Origin: a virus
DNA length: 34,878 nucleotides
Strand: one strand, 5' to 3'
Virus record (IMG/VR): IMGVR_UViG_3300035145_000221
Location: 1-34,878 of that record
Under the pieces are notes generated by a model that saw only the letters and a list, made by a program, of their open reading frames with translations, was not told the DNA's origin and ran no database searches. How positions within the stretch are numbered: the stretch's first letter is position 1; each line of letters opens with the position of its first letter. Positions 8,488 through 32,264 of this stretch are shown piece after piece. Both the position numbers and the translations under genes were made by a program.

Positions 8488-8510
8488 CTGAGAAATATGT
8501 GTCCTTTGGA

Positions 8511-9953
8511 TCACATGAGGTTTTGAACAACCGTTCTCTGGTAGTAGCGGTTGGTGTTGGGGAAGATACGACCCATGCCCTGGTTGGTGCCTTCTGCGAA
8601 GGGGTTGGCGATAAGACCATAGCGGGTCTTGAAGCCAATCTTGGGCTGGAAGCTGTTCTCGCCAACGGCACGAACCATTTGCAGAGGAACATAGGGGCAG
8701 TAGAAGAGACCAGCGTCATAGGGGCTGGTGCCCTTGTAACCGACAACATAGTACTGGTTAGCAGCACTGTTGGCAGAGAAGGGATCGATGTAGACTCTGT
8801 ACTTACCGTTGATAGTACCAGCGAAGGTATTACCAGTGTCGTCAACCTGCAGGTTAGCGTTAAGGGCGGGGGTGTAATCGAGTACACCAGCCATGGTCAG
8901 AGCGGAAGCAACATCAGCAGAAGTCAGGATGATGTTACCCTTCCCTCTACGAGTTCTTTGGGCGATGCGGTTTGCATCTCTCTCGATGTTGAACAGGAGA
9001 CCCTTGAACTTCTCAACAGACCAGCGACCGTTGGAGTCAACATCCAGGTTGAAGAAACCAGCGTTGGCAACATTGACCTGCGAACCAGCTTCAGCAACCT
9101 TATAGATGGTTCTGATGACTTCGCGGTTGATCTCAGCGAGGATCTCGCTGGAGAGGATGTTTGCCAGTTCGGCTTCAGCGTTCAGACCGTGGATTGCCTT
9201 AAGGTCTTGTGCCAGTTCCAAGGAGTACTCAGCTTTCAGAGCACGGGACTTGGCGGTAACGGTGACCTTCTCGATCGAGAATGCCATTTCGTTGAAATCG
9301 CCATTGGTGCCGTCGCCCAGGGCTTCGGAGTCACCAGTCGCCATACCTTGACCAGTGGTGTACTGGCTGTTGTTACCCAGAGCAGCGCCAGAAGCGTTGA
9401 GGATCTGGGGGTTGTCGCCCAGTTGGGTGCCAGTCGAACCGAAACCAACGGTGCCGCCAGCGCCAACCTGACCGCTGTAGTTACCTTGAGTCTCCTGACC
9501 CAGGGTGTTACCAGCAGAGAAGGCGGAATCGGGCTCGTTGAAGAATGCCTCGGTGCCAGACTGATCGGTGTAGCGGGAGCGCATTGCGAAGATCAGTCCA
9601 GTAGGACCGTTCATAGGCTGAACGCCAGCCAGCTCATAAGCGACCAGGTTAGGCATGGAGCGTCTGATCAGGGAGATCAGAACGGGATCGAAACCAGCAA
9701 CAGGACCAGTGTCAGTTGCGCTACCTGTGAAACCGTCGGAAGCGCCAACAGCGTTACCAGAGTTGGTAGGTGCCTCAGTCAGCATACCGCTGCCACTCTC
9801 GAAGGCAGCTTGCTCACGGAGGAAACGCTCTTGGTTCTCAAGGAGAACGGCGGTTACAGATCTACGGTGGGCGTCTTTGATGGCACCTGCGCCATCAGCG
9901 TCGAGCAGAGGAGCCCACTTCTCCATCAAGTGCTCAGAATTAAACATTGACAT
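8511..9953 (-). CDS. 23: gp23, major capsid protein precursor
   Basis: A 480-residue HK97-fold capsid protein of T4 gp23 type (T4: 521 aa). The N-terminus (1-60) is a helical scaffold-binding peptide ending at GMLTE/APTNS. LTE is a prohead-protease site (hydrophobic-x-E), so gp21 should cut after residue 60, as it cuts T4 gp23 after 65. The following FDPVLISLIRRSMPNLVAYELAGVQPM is the conserved T4-family capsid core. The C-terminus has the QPKIGFKTRYGLIANPFAEG motif and YYQRTVVQNLM end. AGAGGT precedes the ATG. Codon use is clearly optimised: few rare triplets, and the antisense frame stays open as a side effect. A strong terminator follows. Confidence 0.98.
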   Translation of the reverse strand: MSMFNSEHLMEKWAPLLDADGAGAIKDAHRRSVTAVLLENQERFLREQAAFESGSGMLTEAPTNSGNAVGASDGFTGSATDTGPVAGFDPVLISLIRRSMPNLVAYELAGVQPMNGPTGLIFAMRSRYTDQSGTEAFFNEPDSAFSAGNTLGQETQGNYSGQVGAGGTVGFGSTGTQLGDNPQILNASGAALGNNSQYTTGQGMATGDSEALGDGTNGDFNEMAFSIEKVTVTAKSRALKAEYSLELAQDLKAIHGLNAEAELANILSSEILAEINREVIRTIYKVAEAGSQVNVANAGFFNLDVDSNGRWSVEKFKGLLFNIERDANRIAQRTRRGKGNIILTSADVASALTMAGVLDYTPALNANLQVDDTGNTFAGTINGKYRVYIDPFSANSAANQYYVVGYKGTSPYDAGLFYCPYVPLQMVRAVGENSFQPKIGFKTRYGLIANPFAEGTNQGMGRIFPNTNRYYQRTVVQNLM

Positions 9954-21390: not shown

Positions 21391-22184
21391 ACATCAGTAC
21401 CTCTGGTAGGACTATAATTCTTGGAATCGTAGAGCATTTCTGTAGTCTCCGTAAACCCAAAGTCGTCGCCAGGATCGGCGTTGATTGGGTCTGGAACAAC
21501 AGTGTAACGCATCTCTCTCTTCGCAGTTGCCCTGTCGGTATCTGCATAGTAATCGACCTGAACCTTGCGAATGAGACCGTCGGTGCTCTCCGCAATAGGA
21601 CCGAACAGGTAGGTCTTTGCTGTAAAATTGAGAGTATATGTTAGAACCCTTCTTGTAGAAAAGTCTCCTTCATATTCATCGGTAAATGAAATATTGTCTA
21701 GTACGACAGGGATATCTCTCTTCTCCCCGATAGATTCAACCAGGTCTAGAGAAACATTAAAGGATGGTTGGAAGAAAGGAAGAATTTGTTCAACAATTTG
21801 AAGAGCGTCTTCATTCAACTTTGTAAGAATGTTTAACTCAAAGTTGACATTATATGGTACGGGCAAGAATACTTTCTTTACATTGTCACCATCGACTGCC
21901 TTAAACGACCTGGTAACACTAGTTTTTCTTGCTGGATCATATTGCAATCCTGTCATCTCAAATGACATTCTAGGCAGAGTGATTGCAACTGCCTTTGCTA
22001 ACTCTTGCTGTTGTCTAATTTTTGCAAGGAACTTAGATCTTGGTCCATATGCCAATGGCACCTTTGTATCACTGATTACGCCACCCTGTCTATCCTCATG
22101 TTGGATGTGGATGTCATTAAACAAAGTTCCGAAAGCAACAACTGTCTTTCTAAGAACTTCGTGATAAAAATATGTACCTAACAT
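21387..22184 (-). CDS. 15: gp15, tail completion and sheath stabiliser protein
   Basis: A 265-residue protein (T4 gp15: 272 aa). The N-terminus LGTYFYHEVLRKTVVAFGTLFNDIHIQHED and the following KVPLAYGPRSKFLAK match the gp15 family. The middle has VPYNVNFELNILTKLNEDALQIVEQILPFFQPSFNV, a strongly conserved element, and later YTLNFTAKTYLFGP. A hexamer of gp15 caps the finished tail and joins it to gp14 of the neck. It overlaps gene 14 as TGATG and gene 16 as ATGA, so neck, tail completion and packaging genes are translated together. Confidence 0.95.
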   Translation of the reverse strand: MLGTYFYHEVLRKTVVAFGTLFNDIHIQHEDRQGGVISDTKVPLAYGPRSKFLAKIRQQQELAKAVAITLPRMSFEMTGLQYDPARKTSVTRSFKAVDGDNVKKVFLPVPYNVNFELNILTKLNEDALQIVEQILPFFQPSFNVSLDLVESIGEKRDIPVVLDNISFTDEYEGDFSTRRVLTYTLNFTAKTYLFGPIAESTDGLIRKVQVDYYADTDRATAKREMRYTVVPDPINADPGDDFGFTETTEMLYDSKNYSPTRGTDV

Positions 22185-23629
22185 CAGAATGTACCAAAGG
22201 GATTAGTTTCAGTGAAATCTAAAAGATTATCTGCCTCTGCTTCTATTTCCTCATTAGAGAAATAATCATCAGCAAATGGTGCAGTATCGTTGTCAGAATA
22301 TGAGAAGACTTGATATCTAGCAGAAGATGCTGTGCCAGTAATGAATTCACCAGGCAAGAATGCACCAGTATTTATTGATATCTGCAGTTGCCTATTGGCA
22401 AGATCCCACTTCTTGACATAACCTTCCGTACCAGAAATAGATCCAACCACTCTCTCATTACCGAAGTATGTTCCTACTCCAGCATTCAATGGACCAGAGA
22501 TTGTAACTGTCGGAGTACCTTCATATCCAGCACCAGCGTTGAGGATAAGAATGTTTTGGAGTTCGTCCCCATCCAATACTGCTCGTGCAGTTGCCTGAAC
22601 CTGACCCGATTTAGTTCCTACAGTTGCACCAGTTGTGCCAATGCCAACATCAGATGGATGCTGTACGGTAATCGTTGGAGGACTTACATAGTTAAATCCA
22701 GGTTGTGTAATTCTAATAGATGTAATACCACTATTAGTAATGGATGCAGTTGCAGCAGCACCTGCTCCAGGACCACCGAATGTAAATGATGGTGGTTCCG
22801 TATATGCAAAACCAGGGTTACCAATTGCTAAGAAATCTACTGCCTGCAAGTTACCAATAGATGTGGTAAATGCAACCACAGCACCTAGGGCACTTGTAAC
22901 GCCAGCAGGAGACCTTGAGACAGTTACAATAGGTGGAGAGGTATACCCGAAACCATCATCATTGAGGAAGACCTCTTGGAGAGCACCTGTGAGGGCGAAT
23001 CCATCGACAACAGCAGTGGATGTAGATCCAATTCCTGCAACGGTAACTGTCGTGATATAACCTTCTTCTGATAGTCTGTCGTCGATTGCAGGGATATTTG
23101 TATCGATAATCTCGTCCTGAAGGCGGAAGAGTTCGCACTGCAATTCGTAAATATAATTTTTACCCAACTGATAGAATGGGTTCTCAAACTCTACATGCTT
23201 AATCTCAAAAAGTCTTTCACCTAGGGGGAACCAGATAAGATCTCCCTCCTTAGGTCTTGTAGAGAATATAATATCACCATCTTCTGCACCTTGTAAATTT
23301 GTAGAGTTGAAGATAAACGGTGCAATCAGATCTTCATATTTTTCTCTAGAAACTGTAAGTGTCAGCTCATTCTGCAGATTAATGCCAAATTTTGTCATGA
23401 TATCACTGCCCTTGGCATAACCCTCATAATTGTTGAGGTATGCTTCCATGGCAAAGTTATCGTTGAACTTGGAAGACTCAACCTCTCCAAGAACATCATC
23501 TGTAGTAATTAATTTTCTAGGAATATAAACGATCTCTTGCCCAAACATCGAAAGATGTTCGTCGATCAGAGACTGAACTAGTCTCTGCTCATCAGGCGAT
23601 CCGTGAAGAAAGAATGGATTTAAGGGCAT
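22184..23629 (-). CDS. 14: gp14, neck protein with inserted GY-repeat region
   Basis: A 481-residue protein, against 256 in T4. The first 170 residues (FFLHGSPDEQRLVQSLIDEHLSMFGQEIVYIPRK..., GKNYIYELQCELFRLQDEIIDT) are clear gp14, as is the C-terminal part from YVKKWDLANRQLQIS to DFTETNPFGTF. Between about 180 and 400 lie at least four units of a beta-repeat, each with G(F/A)GY or GFNY, then PP, then a (V/F)TV or ITV strand and Gly/Ala-rich loops. The pattern is of the sort seen in large phage structural proteins. gp14 with gp13 seals the filled head and joins the tail. The insert would project from the neck. Confidence 0.93.
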   Translation of the reverse strand: MPLNPFFLHGSPDEQRLVQSLIDEHLSMFGQEIVYIPRKLITTDDVLGEVESSKFNDNFAMEAYLNNYEGYAKGSDIMTKFGINLQNELTLTVSREKYEDLIAPFIFNSTNLQGAEDGDIIFSTRPKEGDLIWFPLGERLFEIKHVEFENPFYQLGKNYIYELQCELFRLQDEIIDTNIPAIDDRLSEEGYITTVTVAGIGSTSTAVVDGFALTGALQEVFLNDDGFGYTSPPIVTVSRSPAGVTSALGAVVAFTTSIGNLQAVDFLAIGNPGFAYTEPPSFTFGGPGAGAAATASITNSGITSIRITQPGFNYVSPPTITVQHPSDVGIGTTGATVGTKSGQVQATARAVLDGDELQNILILNAGAGYEGTPTVTISGPLNAGVGTYFGNERVVGSISGTEGYVKKWDLANRQLQISINTGAFLPGEFITGTASSARYQVFSYSDNDTAPFADDYFSNEEIEAEADNLLDFTETNPFGTF

Positions 23630-25191
23630 TATCCTATCATGTCAAGGGGTGGAATTTCATAAGTAGAGAGCATCTTATCTTCGATCTGCTGCAACTCTTG
23701 CACAGCATCTTCGTAGATTTGTCTGCCATTTAATTCAATACCTCCAGGGAGTTTAACTCCTTGGAACTTGATGAGGTTTTGACCCCACTGCTTCTTAACC
23801 CTAGATGTAAAATATCTCTTAAGGAAAGAATCATTATAAACACCTGCATAGTTAGCAGGATCCATGATTCTGTAACATTCAATAATTACATATGTTCCTG
23901 ATGCTGCGCTGGACCAATCAATGTCTAGGTATAATCTATTGTTTCTTTTGTTATATCTAACCTGCTTTGAGGTTGTGAGAAGAAAATCAATATCCTCAAG
24001 ATATGTTTTAGTCATCGCATAGTTCATTAAACCTTGATATCCAAGATCAAATGCTAAGTCATTCAGGAATAACTGATATTTGATACTGAACATGCCACTG
24101 CTGACATTGCTATTGTCAAATGTATGAACCCTCTCGATACCCAGAACTGAATCTGGTACGGTCAGATAGTTTGTATTCTCTTCAAAACTCTGAACTTCAC
24201 CACCACCAGAACTGGTCAAAGTTCCATCTGTGGGGAATGCAGAAGTTGGTGCAGTGAAATTGCTAGTGTATCTTTCTTTTGCTGTAATTCTTACATCATC
24301 ATAAATTGCATCAGTGGATCTACCATCAAGATACTTTGGTCTGGAGTTCAAATACAAATATCTATCAGTACGATTTGGAATATTATTATCAATAACTTGA
24401 TTAGAAGATGTACTGCTACTTTCAGTTCCGTTTAAGAAGAAGTGAATACTACCATCAGATGCTCTTCTAGTTACTGCGACATGAACCCAATTCTGAATAA
24501 TTTGTCCAGTGGTATAAGACCCTAAACCAGTACCGTATGTAGAACTGTGAAGGGTATTGTCAGTATTATGCCATCTGAAATTAATAGTTCCGCTTTGGTT
24601 ATCTACAAGCAGTCCGAAGATTCCGCTGGCGAAAGAAGCATTGGTCTTTGAAAATAAAGCACCACCACTGGGACTGCTGTCGATATAGATCCAGGTTTCA
24701 AAAGTCCACTCACCAGTAAAGTCATATGCAGCATTATGACCATAATAAAGATTCTGATTAGTAGTAAATCTACCAGCTTTTCCAAACTTTACTGGAGATG
24801 CTACGATGTCTGGAGAACCACCAAGAGTCGGAGTGTTTCCTACAGGAGAGTAATCTGTAAAGTCAGCATCAAAAGTATGTCTGACAATTACATCATCCCA
24901 GTTTGAATCCCCACTAATGGTAACAGTTCCTCCATCGCCTGTACTAGAAGTAGTGATACCAAGAGACTCACCACCACCCCTTGCTCTGCCTCTGCTGATG
25001 TCATTGTCGGTAAGTTTGTACTTTAAAAAAACTCTCTCAACACCGTCAAAGTGTCTTTCGTAGAATAACTGCAGGGAGTCATCCAAAGCATCATCTACTT
25101 GTTCATCGGCGACATTGATCTCCAAGACAGGATACCCAAGTTGCCTGAGGGCATAATCCTTGAGTTCCTGTCTAGTTGTTGGTTTAGCCAT
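23629..25191 (-). CDS. 13: gp13, neck protein carrying a LamG-like lectin insertion
   Basis: A 520-residue protein, against 309 in T4. Residues 1-66 (TTRQELKDYALRQLGYPVLEINVADEQVDDALDDSLQLFYERHFDGV) and about 333-520 (VPDSVLGIERVHTF, FLKRYFTSRVKKQWGQNLIKFQGV, GRQIYEDAVQELQQIEDKM) are the conserved gp13 neck protein. Between them, about 95-320, is a jelly-roll of the LamG/concanavalin type: FTGEWTFETWIYID, FGLLVDN, NWVHVAVTRRASDGSIHFFLNG and DDVRITAKERYTSNFTAP. Removing the insert leaves about 255 residues. The domain resembles the one in the giant protein upstream, including the closing FTAPT motif. It probably binds glycans on the host or decorates the neck. Confidence 0.92.
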   Translation of the reverse strand: MAKPTTRQELKDYALRQLGYPVLEINVADEQVDDALDDSLQLFYERHFDGVERVFLKYKLTDNDISRGRARGGGESLGITTSSTGDGGTVTISGDSNWDDVIVRHTFDADFTDYSPVGNTPTLGGSPDIVASPVKFGKAGRFTTNQNLYYGHNAAYDFTGEWTFETWIYIDSSPSGGALFSKTNASFASGIFGLLVDNQSGTINFRWHNTDNTLHSSTYGTGLGSYTTGQIIQNWVHVAVTRRASDGSIHFFLNGTESSSTSSNQVIDNNIPNRTDRYLYLNSRPKYLDGRSTDAIYDDVRITAKERYTSNFTAPTSAFPTDGTLTSSGGGEVQSFEENTNYLTVPDSVLGIERVHTFDNSNVSSGMFSIKYQLFLNDLAFDLGYQGLMNYAMTKTYLEDIDFLLTTSKQVRYNKRNNRLYLDIDWSSAASGTYVIIECYRIMDPANYAGVYNDSFLKRYFTSRVKKQWGQNLIKFQGVKLPGGIELNGRQIYEDAVQELQQIEDKMLSTYEIPPLDMIG

Positions 25192-28100
25192 CAGAAGAAT
25201 CCTCCATCGATCGAATCAGTCCAGGTTGGAATTCCATTTGCGTTCGTAGTGAGGACATAGTTTGATGTAGTGAGGAATCCTACTGTGCTAGCAGAACTTA
25301 CCAGTCTTCCATCATTCTCAAAGTAACCAACGCCGTTAGGACCACTATATCCGATTCCGTTGATTCCACCCTGATCAGATCTGTAGTACAGACCATCACG
25401 GAAGGTGCCATAACCGATTACGCTCAGATTGTCTTGGACAGTTACCTGACCAGCAGCAGAGTCGAGAACCAGTTCGCCACTAAGAGTATTTATTTTAGTG
25501 TTAGAAGAACCAGCACCAATCGTAATACTGGAGATCGTAGATACACCAGTTACTTTCAGGTTGTTGGTGGTCGTTACACCAGAGATAAACAGGTTGCGAC
25601 CGTTGACCTCATCGTATACAACATCGCCGATGATGTTCAGGTTACCAGCGATATAAACATCGCTCTCGAAAGTGGAGATTCCAACGAAGGTCGAAAGACC
25701 AGTTACCTTCAGGTTAGTGTTGGTGGTGTTGGTAGTAAATCCAGTTTCGATTCTGGCAGTTGTGATTGCGAAGTCAGTAGCAAGACCAGCGGTGATCTTG
25801 GCATCTTGAATGTCAGCATCGACAACATCTAAGCGATTAGCGGTTACTACACCAGCGGTTGCAACAATAGAAGAACCAATGCTGATCTGACCCTTATAGA
25901 TGCCGTTATCGGAGAAGGTAACGATACCCAACATCTCCGAACCAGCGGCGGTGAGGATCAGTCTTGCGCCGTCGCCATTAGCAAACCGATCACCGTAGAT
26001 TAACTTCAGAGTTTCATTATCTACAGTCATCACATCGCTGGCACCAAGACCAGTCTGGATGCTCAGGAAGTTGCTTCTGACTCTCAGTCTGCTAAAAGTT
26101 GCCTCAGAGTTGAAGTGCTCAATAGTGGTATGACCTCTATTGAAGAACTGCTCGCCATCAGCGTGCTGAATAGTCAGATCATCATCACTACCGATCTTGA
26201 TCAGAACATTGTCTGGGAAGGTCAGCGTGCTGTTGATTCCGATTGGGGAATTGATCGTTGCAGATCCATCTCCAACAACTTGACCAACAGTGAAGTTGGT
26301 AACGAGACCAACTGCTGCTCTCAGAGTGTTGATACCAACGATATGCTCGAATGAAGCAATATCGGTTACTGTCAGACCTGCACCAACGGTGAGGTTAGAC
26401 ATGAATGTAGCAACACCAGTGATCTTGAGATCTTCCAGTAAGGTAGATCCAAGAACATCAACTCTTGCTCTAGGAGCGGCAGTAGCAATACCCAGCAACT
26501 GACCGTTGGTGAGGCGCATACCCTCAACAGCATCAGTGTTGAAGCGGATAGTACCGTCAGAACCAGAGTCATCGAGAGCGATGGAGGTGTCACCCTTCTG
26601 GAAAGCATCCAATTGGATGACCGTAGCAGTCAGGATACCCAGGACATTGACATCACCAGTGATGTTGATATCACCTGCACCAGCGGGGTCGATATTGATA
26701 TCGCCTGTAGTGGACTCAATGTTGTTACCAGCAATTTGGATGTTACCAAATGTGCCGCTAGTAGGTGTGATTGTGCTGGCATCAGTCCCGTCAGTAATCT
26801 GGAGGGAAGACAGTGCCTGCAGACTGGTTACCTGCTGCGAGAATGCAACGGTGCCAGACTCTTGATCAACATAGAATGCATCACCGACTCTAAAGTCGCC
26901 CTTGTGGTCGATGCTGACGAAGGAGACATCACCGTTATTGGTCTCAGTAACCTCATTTGCCTGAATTGCCAGGTTGGGATCGTTGGAGAAATCTCCACCA
27001 GAACCAACATGGTTGAAGTTGAGAGCAAACAGTCTCAGAGTTACGCCATCGCCATCAGCAATGACGCCCTTCTGACCATACTCAACAGCACAACCAACGG
27101 AGCGCATGTCCGCACCGAACTCACTGTAATCAGCAAGGATAACCTTGGTTGCAGTTCCGATACCGCCACCAGATTGAGTGATGCGGATATCCTGGTTACG
27201 GATTACATTATCAGTTGTTGTGCTAATGCCATTTGAACCATTAAAGTTCAGCAGCAATGCAGTATCTTTATCGCCAGTCAGTTCGGCAGTAGGAGCAGTA
27301 AATGCTGCAGTGTACTTAGCAACACCGTATTCAACTCTGAAGTCATCGATCCAACCTGTTACCGAGTTGGATGTGCCATCGAAGTCAGCACCGATGACCA
27401 GACCCTTAGATGCACCGTAGTCAGTTGTATCAGAGGTCTTAATGCCTCTCTGAGTACCGTCAACGAACAGTCTAGTATTTGTACCCTCTCTAGCGAGTGC
27501 ATAGTGCTTCCAGACGCCTGTAGCGATGCCTGCGCCAGAACCAGTGATAGCGGTGGTAGTACCAACGCGCATATCAACTTCACCAGCAGCACGGAAGGCA
27601 AGACTAATACCTTCAGCATCCGTACCATCAGTTCTTAAGTCGAAGAGAGTTGCGCTGCTCAGACCAGTTGTATTTGCGTATGCCCAGAATTCAATCGTGA
27701 AGTCTGTATTGGTGCCGAAACCTAGATCACCGCTAGAAGGAACGCTGATAGAATCATTTGTTCCATCGAGAGCGAGTGACGCGCTACCAAACTTCTTAAC
27801 TGCAGTATCTAACTGAGCGTTGCCATTGAAGGTAACTGCCTTAGCAGATCTCGCGTTGAGAACTTCAAAACCAGTTTGCTTACCAGTTACACCAAGATAT
27901 GTTCCATCATACGATGCAACAACAGCAGTCGCAACACCAGTAGTTCCGTCAGTATCGAAGACGGTAATCGTGTTTCCTACACCAACAGTTGTGATGCCAG
28001 TCAATCTCAGTCTGGTTTCACCAGCAGATGACAGACCAACTGTTCCAGATGTACCTTTGATCGCCTCAGAAGCGAAGTAGGAGAAGCAGTTCAGATACTC

Positions 28101-31100
28101 AATACGAGCACCGTTGGTCATCTCCAGACCTTTACCGCCAGGAACGATGAAGGTACATTCGTTGAATAAGAATCCTGCCTCAAGAGATCCTGATGCTACC
28201 TCAGAACCATCAACAAAGGCACCACCACCAGAGATGTAAGAAGATGGTGGAGAATCTGCAGATCCATATCCATATGGATCGCTAGCAGTAATATTGCTAC
28301 CTTTGTTGAATACTGTTACACGCTGGACATAAGGAGATCTAGATGTGATCGCAATGCCAGGAGCATAACGGAACGCCCAACCTTGGTTACCAGCAGTATC
28401 GAAGTATTGACCAGCAATAGTGACATCTTCAACGACTGATCTGTCGTTCATCAAGAAGCAGTCCTTCTGCCTGGTGGCAGTAGTAGGCATGATCTTGGTG
28501 GCACGGAGACCAGCACCCTTGACTGTCAGACCAGCTGGAACAGTCAGTGGGAAGGTTTCTTCATAAACACCAGCAGCGATGTTCAGAACATCATTAACAC
28601 CGATGTTGGAGATCTGCGACAGAGCGTATGCAATCGTCCTGTAAGGTCTCTCTGGTGTTCTGCCGCGAGAGGCATCACCATCGTCAACACCATTGGTAGA
28701 AACATACCATGTATCAAGTTTGGCATTGATAGTAGCAATACCGATCTGAGCAGGTTCACGCCAAGTGACTGTTCCTGCAGGATCAGTGCTCAGGATATGC
28801 TGAGTGTTCAGACCAACAACACCAGTGGAGTCATACAGCGAGGTGATGAAACCAGAGGTAATAAATGCGGAGGTGGCAATACCGACCTGAGTTACCAGGT
28901 TAGTAATCGCAAAGTCAGTAGCAAGACCAGCAGTGATCTTAGCGTCTTCAATGTCAGCGTTGGTGAAGTCAACATTAACGATTGTGGCAGCAGTACCAAC
29001 GATATCGGTAATGATACCAGCAGTAATCTTGACATCTCTAGCATCCAGGGTCTCAATATCGACCGTGGTGATGGTGGCATAAGTGCCAACCTGAGATGTG
29101 ATAATGCCAGCAGTGATCTTGGCATTAACAATGTCACCTTCAGTGACATCGATGGTTGTAATCGTAGCAGCAGTACCAACAATATCGGTAACCGCAATGC
29201 CAGTAATGTTTACATTGAGAGCATCAAGATTCTCAACATCAATTGTTGTGATTGTGGCATAAGTGCCAACCAGTGATGTTACAACACCAGCGGTGATCTT
29301 TGCGTTAACAATGTCACCTTCTGTAGCATCAATCGTTGTGATAGTTGCTGCAGTACCGACGATATCAGTAATGATACCAGCAGTGATCTTGACATCTCTG
29401 AGATCAGCAGTCTCAGTGTCAAATGTAGTGATCGTAGCGTAGGTGCCAACCAGAGAGGTTACGACACCAGCAGTGATCTTAGCGTTGACGATATCACCTT
29501 CAGTGACATCAATCGTCGTGATGGTAGCAGCAGTACCAACAATGTCGGTAATGATTCCAGCAGTGATCTTGACATCTCTAGCATCGAGAGTCTCAATATC
29601 AACTGTATTGATAGTTGCATAGGTGCCTACCTGACTGGTGATAATACCAGCAGTGATCTTGGCATCCAGGATATCAGCAGCATCGAGGTGTGCGGTGCCA
29701 TCGATGTAGATATCTCTCCACTCACGATCGGTAGTACCGATGTCCAGAGTGTCATCACTGACAGGAGTGAACTTGAGATTAGACTCCCATGCCTCTCTAG
29801 GTTGGTCATATAGGAAGGTCTTGTCAGTCGTACCCTTAACAATGATACCGCCGTTGTCGGCTGTGGCATCAGCGTGGGAACCTGTAGAACTGAAACCAAG
29901 TTCAATGTTCTTATCGGTGATTTGAACAACCGTGCTTTGAACGAAACTCGTGGTTCCATTTACAGTCAGGTCGCCCATGACGGTCATAGCACCACCGACT
30001 CTGACATCATCTTGGAAGTCAGCGTCTTGGAAGGTTACATATGTACCGACAAGTGATGTAACCAGACCAGTGGTAACCTTGACATCAACAGCGTCAAGAT
30101 TATTGATGTCTACCGTAGAAATGGTGGCATATGTGCCAACCATGCTAGTAACAACACCAGCGGTAATCTTGGCAAAGTAACCGTCGAAGTAGTTGGTGTC
30201 TACCGTGTTGATTGTAGCAGCAGTACCAACAATGTCGGTAATAATACCAGCAGTAATCTTGACATCTCTGAGGTCAGCGATCTCAGTATCAAATGTCGTG
30301 ATTGTGGCGTAAGTACCAACATAACTGGTTACGACACCTGCCGTGATCTTCGCATACTCGATGTCTGCATCAGCGAAGTCAGCGTTCGTAATAGTCGCTG
30401 CAGCACCAGTCTGGTATGTAATAATACCAGTATAGATCTTAGCGTTGGTGATAGCAAAATCAGTTGCTAAACCAGCGGTTACCTTAATGTCCTCAACACC
30501 AATATCATTGATGTCAATTTGAGGAATTGTCGCAACACCAGAGACCGTGAGGTCGCCGTTTACAGCGAGAAGAGCATCTGGTGCAGTTGTGCCGATTCCA
30601 ACCCAACCGTCACTGTTACCACTAATCCACTTAGTTCCGCCAGAACCAATGACTAACTGATTATCACCTTCAGTCTTAGCAGCTTCTTGCTGGAAACCAA
30701 TGATGACATTGTTGTCACCAGATGTTGTCTGTCCAGAAGATTGACCAATAGAGATATTGTTGCTACCAGATGCATCAATACCAGAAGATGCACCAATGGC
30801 AATGTTATCGCTGCCCTCTACATTGTAAAGTGTATAAGCACCAATAGCGATGTTATCGCTTTGACTTGTGGAGATACCTGCTCCCCACAGTGCCTGTTGA
30901 CCAATGGCAATATTTCTTTCGTGATCTTCTCTACCAGTGGTAGTGAGAATACCTGCCTTAACTACAATGAAACCAAACGAACCAGTAAGACCCAGAGTAG
31001 GATCGTTGGAGACATAGATGGCATCATGCTTTGCAGTCAGAAGACCTACATTGTCAGTACCTTTTACAGTGAACTGAGTTCCTTGCAGTTTCTGTAAGAA

Positions 31101-32264
31101 ACCTTCTGATGCTGTAGCAAAGTTGAAACTTAATCCACCAGTAACAGCACCGTTAACCGTAACCAGATCGGTCAGGTTGTTCAGAGCAATCGCAAAGTCA
31201 CCATCACTAACATAAGTGGAGATGCCAGACTCTGTAGAACCATATACTCTATACGCATATGGTGGCGAATTGAGTGATGTAGCGTCAGAGAAGGAGATTC
31301 CGCTAGCTGTGCCAGTAGAACCAACAGAAATAATATTTTGAGAACCTAAATCTTGACCTGCCTTATCACCAATGTAGATGTTATAAGAACCCTCTGCCTG
31401 TTGACCAGCAAAGGCACCTAAGAAGATATTGGACTCTGCCTGTACCTGTCCACCAAGTTGGAAGGAACTGTTACCAATGGCGATATTTCTCTTGGTAAGA
31501 GAGGTCTGACCAACACCTTGACCAGAGAAGTTACCAATGAAAATACCCTGACGATCATTACCGTCGGTTTCGGGTTCGCCTGCCTCGCGACCAATTTTAA
31601 TTAATTGGGTTCTGAAGTCAATATTGTCTTCAATCGTGGCAATACCAGTAACCGTAAGGTTTTTGGTAGTTGTAGCATGACTTACATTGACTTCAATAAA
31701 GTTGCCACTAGCACTGGTAATGGCATTGTCAAGGGTTACATTGACACCGAAGAAGTTAGTAACAACACCTGTTTGTACACGAGCAAGATTAATATCTGCA
31801 TCGTTAGTTACATTCAGATCATATGCAGTAGCAATACCCGTGATGTTCCAATTTCGGGCATTTGCTTCATCATATGTGATGTCGCCAGTAACATTGAAGT
31901 TGCCACCAACAGTCAGGTCACCCTGTACTGTAGCACCAGAACCTACAGTAAGGTTTTGTGCAATATCAAATTTAGTTGCTCTTGCCTGGGAGTCTAAGAC
32001 AAGAACTTTCGATGCTTCTGGCGTGCCAAAAGTTACTGGGTTTTCTGGGAATAGACTGGTGTAATATTCACCACCAATTGGAATTGGTGAGAAAGTTGGT
32101 CCACTAGGGTGACCAATGTATAGTTTCTTATATGACTTACCAGCACCTACATTAGTTTCGTCGTAGGTATAAATTAATTCACCAAAACTTACGCCTGTTC
32201 CTACTGGCGCGACATTAGGCGGTGATGTACCCCTAGTCCTTTTTAGGAGAATAATAGCGGCCAT
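25191..32264 (-). CDS. Giant modular tail-fibre/adhesin-like virion protein (2357 aa)
   Basis: No single family covers it. Visible modules in order: an N-terminal domain (1-120) with VNVTGDITYD strands, perhaps for virion attachment; YadA-like head repeats with the N-I-(A/S)-I-G signature at about 255-310 and 450-540; a shaft of about 15 units of 30 residues (about 595-1120); a right-handed beta-helix start (WYVSTNGVDDGD, TIAYALSQI, GVYEETFPL, about 1180-1400) like DUF1565/pectate-lyase-type helices; a LamG-like jelly-roll (GSASLALDGTNDSI, FTIEFWAYA, VWKHYALAREGTNTRLFVDG, about 1480-1680); then more strands and shaft-like units to the end. It has no enzyme motif. Its site between baseplate-type genes and gene 13, and its make-up, point to a host-contact fibre, probably trimeric. 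The start overlaps the 70-aa gene as TAATG. Confidence 0.88.
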   Translation of the reverse strand: MAAIILLKRTRGTSPPNVAPVGTGVSFGELIYTYDETNVGAGKSYKKLYIGHPSGPTFSPIPIGGEYYTSLFPENPVTFGTPEASKVLVLDSQARATKFDIAQNLTVGSGATVQGDLTVGGNFNVTGDITYDEANARNWNITGIATAYDLNVTNDADINLARVQTGVVTNFFGVNVTLDNAITSASGNFIEVNVSHATTTKNLTVTGIATIEDNIDFRTQLIKIGREAGEPETDGNDRQGIFIGNFSGQGVGQTSLTKRNIAIGNSSFQLGGQVQAESNIFLGAFAGQQAEGSYNIYIGDKAGQDLGSQNIISVGSTGTASGISFSDATSLNSPPYAYRVYGSTESGISTYVSDGDFAIALNNLTDLVTVNGAVTGGLSFNFATASEGFLQKLQGTQFTVKGTDNVGLLTAKHDAIYVSNDPTLGLTGSFGFIVVKAGILTTTGREDHERNIAIGQQALWGAGISTSQSDNIAIGAYTLYNVEGSDNIAIGASSGIDASGSNNISIGQSSGQTTSGDNNVIIGFQQEAAKTEGDNQLVIGSGGTKWISGNSDGWVGIGTTAPDALLAVNGDLTVSGVATIPQIDINDIGVEDIKVTAGLATDFAITNAKIYTGIITYQTGAAATITNADFADADIEYAKITAGVVTSYVGTYATITTFDTEIADLRDVKITAGIITDIVGTAATINTVDTNYFDGYFAKITAGVVTSMVGTYATISTVDINNLDAVDVKVTTGLVTSLVGTYVTFQDADFQDDVRVGGAMTVMGDLTVNGTTSFVQSTVVQITDKNIELGFSSTGSHADATADNGGIIVKGTTDKTFLYDQPREAWESNLKFTPVSDDTLDIGTTDREWRDIYIDGTAHLDAADILDAKITAGIITSQVGTYATINTVDIETLDARDVKITAGIITDIVGTAATITTIDVTEGDIVNAKITAGVVTSLVGTYATITTFDTETADLRDVKITAGIITDIVGTAATITTIDATEGDIVNAKITAGVVTSLVGTYATITTIDVENLDALNVNITGIAVTDIVGTAATITTIDVTEGDIVNAKITAGIITSQVGTYATITTVDIETLDARDVKITAGIITDIVGTAATIVNVDFTNADIEDAKITAGLATDFAITNLVTQVGIATSAFITSGFITSLYDSTGVVGLNTQHILSTDPAGTVTWREPAQIGIATINAKLDTWYVSTNGVDDGDASRGRTPERPYRTIAYALSQISNIGVNDVLNIAAGVYEETFPLTVPAGLTVKGAGLRATKIMPTTATRQKDCFLMNDRSVVEDVTIAGQYFDTAGNQGWAFRYAPGIAITSRSPYVQRVTVFNKGSNITASDPYGYGSADSPPSSYISGGGAFVDGSEVASGSLEAGFLFNECTFIVPGGKGLEMTNGARIEYLNCFSYFASEAIKGTSGTVGLSSAGETRLRLTGITTVGVGNTITVFDTDGTTGVATAVVASYDGTYLGVTGKQTGFEVLNARSAKAVTFNGNAQLDTAVKKFGSASLALDGTNDSISVPSSGDLGFGTNTDFTIEFWAYANTTGLSSATLFDLRTDGTDAEGISLAFRAAGEVDMRVGTTTAITGSGAGIATGVWKHYALAREGTNTRLFVDGTQRGIKTSDTTDYGASKGLVIGADFDGTSNSVTGWIDDFRVEYGVAKYTAAFTAPTAELTGDKDTALLLNFNGSNGISTTTDNVIRNQDIRITQSGGGIGTATKVILADYSEFGADMRSVGCAVEYGQKGVIADGDGVTLRLFALNFNHVGSGGDFSNDPNLAIQANEVTETNNGDVSFVSIDHKGDFRVGDAFYVDQESGTVAFSQQVTSLQALSSLQITDGTDASTITPTSGTFGNIQIAGNNIESTTGDINIDPAGAGDINITGDVNVLGILTATVIQLDAFQKGDTSIALDDSGSDGTIRFNTDAVEGMRLTNGQLLGIATAAPRARVDVLGSTLLEDLKITGVATFMSNLTVGAGLTVTDIASFEHIVGINTLRAAVGLVTNFTVGQVVGDGSATINSPIGINSTLTFPDNVLIKIGSDDDLTIQHADGEQFFNRGHTTIEHFNSEATFSRLRVRSNFLSIQTGLGASDVMTVDNETLKLIYGDRFANGDGARLILTAAGSEMLGIVTFSDNGIYKGQISIGSSIVATAGVVTANRLDVVDADIQDAKITAGLATDFAITTARIETGFTTNTTNTNLKVTGLSTFVGISTFESDVYIAGNLNIIGDVVYDEVNGRNLFISGVTTTNNLKVTGVSTISSITIGAGSSNTKINTLSGELVLDSAAGQVTVQDNLSVIGYGTFRDGLYYRSDQGGINGIGYSGPNGVGYFENDGRLVSSASTVGFLTTSNYVLTTNANGIPTWTDSIDGGFF
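28890..30480 (-). repeat. 90-bp tandem repeat shaft, two alternating unit types
   Basis: About 15 diverged copies of a 30-codon unit lie in frame within the giant gene, with one non-repeat insertion in the middle (about 29660-30030). Type A units read AKITAGVVTSLVGTYATI and type B units VKITAGIITDIVGTAATI, and they mostly alternate, giving a 180-bp higher-order period. Copies are near identical at protein level in places, which favours gain or loss by recombination. Confidence 0.88.

Follow-up and report, generated by a model that had tools for sequence, protein, structure and literature searches.

In the virus record IMGVR_UViG_3300035145_000221 (positions 1-34,878, one strand; this whole stretch of DNA is referred to here as the window), the gene for the neck protein gp13 carries a predicted LamG-type jelly-roll domain inserted in frame, in the one loop of gp13 that we found to accept domain-sized additions. 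The insert is present in some relatives and absent from others, its alleles are exchanged as cassettes, and it evolves under weaker constraint than the protein that surrounds it. It probably serves as an exchangeable accessory adhesion domain on the swing domain of gp13, carried in up to twelve copies per virion.

The 520-aa open reading frame lies at 23629-25191 on the minus strand, where a preliminary description of the same DNA had placed it, and homology at both ends of its product assigns it to the gp13 family of T4-like phages: residues 4-64 and 443-507 match T4 gp13 PDB chains (9mkb, a T4 virion structure, and 9lu4; 3.5e-16), and a match to PHROG 211, 'head-tail adaptor Ad2' (3.3e-41), covers residues 358-512. 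The N-terminal segment (residues 1-87; 24931-25191, minus strand), aligned by phmmer to T4 gp13 residues 6-66 and also to insert-free relatives, would comprise the helical core and the first strand of the swing domain, and the C-terminal segment (residues 337-520; 23632-24183, minus strand) the rest of the swing domain, the adaptor loop, the channel helix and the C-terminal arm. The gene order is also that of T4: directly downstream, with a one-base overlap, comes gp14 (head closure Hc2; 22184-23629, minus strand; PF11649, 4.2e-29; PHROG 460, 3.1e-124), followed by gp15, the small terminase, the large terminase and the sheath (13-14-15-16-17-18), an order that P-SSM2 shows as well. Because the best matches of the large terminase are to Synechococcus phages (up to 79.6% identity), we regard the window as a cyanophage-type (Kyanoviridae-like) contig.

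Directly upstream of gp13, at 25191-32264 on the minus strand, is the gene for a 2357-aa repetitive virion protein that matches 'baseplate wedge subunit' PHROGs and has a LamG domain of its own (27333-27767, minus strand). This gene also contains a tandem array at 28980-29665 (unit 180 bp, half unit 90 bp) that encodes repeats such as 'DVKITAGIITDIVGTAATITTID'. The size of gp14 varies, from 657 aa in S-CAM9 (L083:4122-6092) to 481 in the window and 256 in T4, and beyond its homologous first ~190 residues it has stretches in common with other virion proteins. Elsewhere in the window, a 483-aa open frame at 8499-9950 (plus strand) runs antisense to a 480-aa frame at 8511-9953 (minus strand) and is probably a shadow ORF.

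The insert spans about 249 residues, approximately 88-336 of gp13 (24184-24930, minus strand), and is bordered by Gly/Ser/Thr-rich flanks. Native gp13 sequence extends to about residue 83-88 (RGRARGGGESLGITTSSTGDGG, common to insert-free relatives) and picks up again at about 336-337 (SFEENTNYL). Contig L002, whose gp13 of 273 aa has no insert, is collinear with the window on both sides, with nucleotide identities of 88.8% across the 1423 nt that end at window position 24945 and of 80.7% across the 3674 nt that begin at position 24186; as these two alignment blocks flank the insert, it is the only large difference there. Comparison of L091, which carries the LamG domain, with L007, which lacks it, breaks between nucleotides 262 and 1009 of the gene and thus yields the same residues, 88-336. 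The preliminary description had set the interruption at about residues 66-333, a small error, as residues 66-87 are part of the native loop. Its central claim, that a LamG/concanavalin jelly-roll interrupts gp13, is upheld by the existence of insert-free relatives together with the family match and the fold of the insert described below.

In ten further IMG/VR contigs, gp13 contains the insert, always with an intact frame. Two of them (L085 and L086) match the window at 99.99% identity, and in the remaining eight the insert has ~73-79% amino-acid identity to that of the window. Its recurrence in ten contigs, of which eight differ from the window, goes far beyond chance and rules out an assembly artefact such as a chimeric contig. 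The possibility that the insert is an extension of the gp13 core common to all cyanophages is likewise ruled out, since close relatives (L002 and others within a wider set of gp13 ORFs) do without it; the comparison across cyanophages that had been proposed as a check found it absent from most other gp13s.

With regard to the identity of the domain, residues 154-304 (24280-24732, minus strand) match Laminin_G_3 (PF13385; 2.1e-13) with 51.1 bits against a curated cutoff of 27.6, and the match recurs at the same place in the genome search, in agreement with the LamG family membership for which an HMM search had been suggested. Insert and whole protein were folded separately; LamG fragments were misaligned when added to the gp13 alignment. 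The AlphaFold2 model of the insert alone, built from an alignment with 29 relatives, is a confident beta jelly-roll (pLDDT 85.5, pTM 0.86). Prediction of the full protein, which the preliminary description had proposed as a check, gave a model of poor quality (pLDDT 53.8), and we therefore do not interpret the relative placement of the domains. The top PDB matches of the full-length model are T4 gp13 chains, followed by lectin and carbohydrate-binding folds (CBM40, CBM66, pentraxin, neurexin). Foldseek searches with the insert model retrieved concanavalin-A-like domains, including domain 4 of the arabinanase AbnA, and, among viral proteins, the LamG proteins of S-SCSM1, S-TIM5 and S-CAM1 (TM-score 0.78-0.85). 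The insert is, as judged from profile match and model, a concanavalin-A-like jelly-roll of the Laminin_G_3 type. Foldseek matches to clostridial neurotoxin binding domains (10-16% identity) reflect the common ConA-like lectin fold and have no bearing on toxicity. No ligand-binding residue was identified in the insert.

To place the insert among gp13s generally, we used 271 unique ORFs, mainly from four viral-contig searches with different gp13 queries. In this set, which is non-random because it is made up of the top-scoring matches of four gp13 queries, all 52 insertions of at least 25 aa sit in a single loop, anchored at about residues 60 and 97. From anchor to anchor the loop measures 27-287 residues across the 271 ORFs (27-53 where no domain is inserted), and elsewhere segments gain at most about 20 residues, short of the 25-aa threshold in every case. 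The loop is thus a single hotspot for domain insertion in gp13. Most of its insertions (45 of the 52) are an unrelated insert of ~100 residues, found in S-CAM9, S-8S56 and their relatives, that resembles stretches of the baseplate wedge PHROGs 2885 and 32294. Inserts of this second type (NHGLxTGxxVxY...) occur at L083:3001-4119, at L084:3001-4116 and in L097-L148. No LamG domain was found in gp13 among phage isolates, and no description of a LamG within gp13 was found in the open-access literature.

Close relatives differ in whether they have the LamG domain. Nucleotide identity between L093 (with LamG) and L003 (without) is 93.7% over 4980 nt upstream and 77.1% over 3164 nt downstream, so that similarity shifts at the site of the insert; this drop from ~94% to 77% across the insert site is likely a recombination breakpoint between otherwise close phages. 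Among carriers, L090 and L093 agree at 98.6% upstream of the insert, at 80.2% within it and at 99.5% downstream of it, and L087 and L090 are 89.8% identical upstream, 96.7% in the insert and 98.0% downstream: LamG alleles are swapped as cassettes between near-identical gp13 backbones. Trees of the C-terminal half of gp13 reject a common clade for the LamG carriers (AU p = 1e-4) and place the window beside the insert-free L002 (support 93/88); for the N-terminal part, a single carrier clade is not rejected (p = 0.49).

Selection on the insert differs from that on the rest of the protein. Pairwise dN/dS is 0.27-0.53 in the insert as against 0.00-0.11 in flanking gp13, where dS values above ~1 in the C-terminal segment are saturated, and the S-CAM9-type insert shows 0.23 as against 0.04 in its own gp13 core. 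Variable positions of the LamG domain are not clearly concentrated outside its strands (0.44 versus 0.36 variable). That dN/dS stays well below 1, that frames are intact in all carriers, and that the conserved residues of the fold are kept although alleles have diverged to ~73-79% identity indicate that the domain is under purifying selection; the idea that it is a near-neutral passenger in a permissive loop, which would suit the variable length of this loop in all gp13s and an insert dN/dS above that of the core, is for these reasons very unlikely.

The nearest other LamG domains (28-46% identity) reside in fibre-like proteins of the virion, as a rule towards the end of the chain. A protein of this kind is the most likely donor of the gp13 LamG, with the direction of transfer being our inference. 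That the LamG of the upstream 2357-aa protein was recently duplicated to give the insert is unsupported, as the two are only 25% identical and the LamG domains of other phages are closer.

T4 gp13 forms a dodecamer and consists of a helical core, a peripheral swing domain (residues 52-192) and domain III (190-239), which captures the fibritin whiskers; in the mature virion the swing domain flips up, and part of it (90-157) packs against portal and capsid (PMC12270204). Together with gp14, T4 gp13 can assemble into rings in vitro (PMC12270204). The LamG insert lies in a loop shortly after the equivalent of T4 residue 66 and so in the early part of the swing domain; the precise corresponding T4 position is uncertain. 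The preliminary description had put it where the whiskers sit in T4, which is not borne out: the fibritin binder is domain III and the LamG occupies a loop elsewhere, a position that also rules out replacement of domain III by LamG. Cyanophage gp13s are shorter and show gaps roughly over T4 190-239, in a mid-protein alignment of low confidence, and from their sequences they seem to have no counterpart of domain III. Tolerance of domain-sized cargo suggests that the loop is exposed; however, its exposure is not certain, given the packing of T4 residues 90-157 against portal and capsid.

In our preferred reading, the gp13 loop just past the first strand of the swing domain tolerates insertion in some marine T4-like (cyanophage-type) phages, and exchangeable accessory domains would be spliced into it. 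The altered gp13 would still fold and presumably assemble into a dodecamer that sits between portal and gp14, with up to twelve LamG domains projecting from the edge of the neck; that these form a ring in the window phage is suggested by analogy with the T4 dodecamer. The domains may bind glycans of the host surface or the environment in a weak, multivalent and variable manner and so help to keep the particle attached to the cell, with the tail fibres remaining the main receptor binders. A binding-type fold, relaxed constraint and cassette exchange together point to adhesion to variable surface glycans, making sugar binding and adhesion plausible, although most relatives do without the insert. 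LamG domains can also have purely structural or protein-binding roles. In other systems, the neck carbohydrate-binding module of lactococcal 936 phages binds the host (PMC6669499) and neck passage proteins undergo domain shuffling (PMC10684548), but in cyanophage A-1(L) the module at the neck-fibre tip failed to bind the host (PMC10966104).

Two further readings compete with adhesion. The LamG domain could instead be a docking site for a neck or tail fibre, a functional counterpart of T4 domain III, which captures whiskers (PMC12270204). The ability of LamG domains to bind proteins would fit such a role, as would the large repetitive virion-protein gene with a LamG of its own directly upstream. 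However, the upstream similarity between L093 and L003 covers much of this large gene, whose near constancy between relatives with and without the insert argues that its product does not need the LamG; moreover, a fast-evolving domain swapped between near-identical backbones is unlike a conserved docking interface, and we consider docking unlikely. Less probable still is that the domain merely stabilises or shields the head-tail junction as a decoration or extension in size, with no external ligand. In phage Milano, a jelly-roll domain of the collar protein decorates a collar with a stabilising role (PMC10491603), and the gp13 loop also takes an unrelated domain; yet accelerated amino-acid change, allele exchange and patchy presence would not be expected of such a part, and the fold is that of a superfamily made up mainly of binding domains.

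The head-tail adaptor is usually regarded as a conserved, purely structural core gene. More tentatively than the adhesive role itself, and at somewhat less than even chances, we propose that the gp13 adaptor is a general display platform, in which one loop of a dodecameric neck ring takes a LamG domain, an S-CAM9-type domain or nothing, with alleles swapped as cassettes, and which forms a second, fast-evolving adhesion layer apart from the tail fibres. If so, marine T4-like phages bear a variable neck adhesion layer that studies of host range and tail fibres miss. Because near relatives without an insert exist, as does a cultivated phage (S-CAM9) that bears another domain in the loop, the role of the LamG domain can be tested directly.

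Binding modules on phage necks are already known; what is unusual here is the location within the core adaptor of a T4-like phage, at a hotspot common with a second, unrelated domain. With T4 gp13 and PHROG 211 the protein has in common a homologous core at both ends and the gene order 13-14-15-16-17, whereas T4 gp13 has no LamG and its fibritin-binding domain III occupies a different part of the chain and has no evident counterpart in the window. The Milano collar protein, also called gp13, has a neck-decorating jelly-roll that resembles glycan-interacting proteins and is inserted between the halves of another domain (PMC10491603), but it shares only the name, being a separate 60-copy collar protein in which that other domain is a jelly-roll and not an adaptor. 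The neck proteins of lactococcal phages offer an analogy only: they too carry a neck-decorating binding module that is modular and exchanged between phages, but theirs is an accessory neck protein of a siphophage with demonstrated binding, whereas the LamG lies within the core adaptor of a T4-like myophage and its binding is inferred. In isolates, the closest relatives of the domain itself are the LamG virion proteins of S-SCSM1, S-TIM5 and S-CAM1 (29-39% identity by tblastn), where it is part of fibre-like or other virion proteins and not of gp13. Conversely, S-CAM9 and S-8S56 have a domain inserted in the very same loop of gp13 as the window, but theirs is the unrelated ~100-residue domain resembling baseplate wedge proteins (phrog_2885) instead of a LamG.
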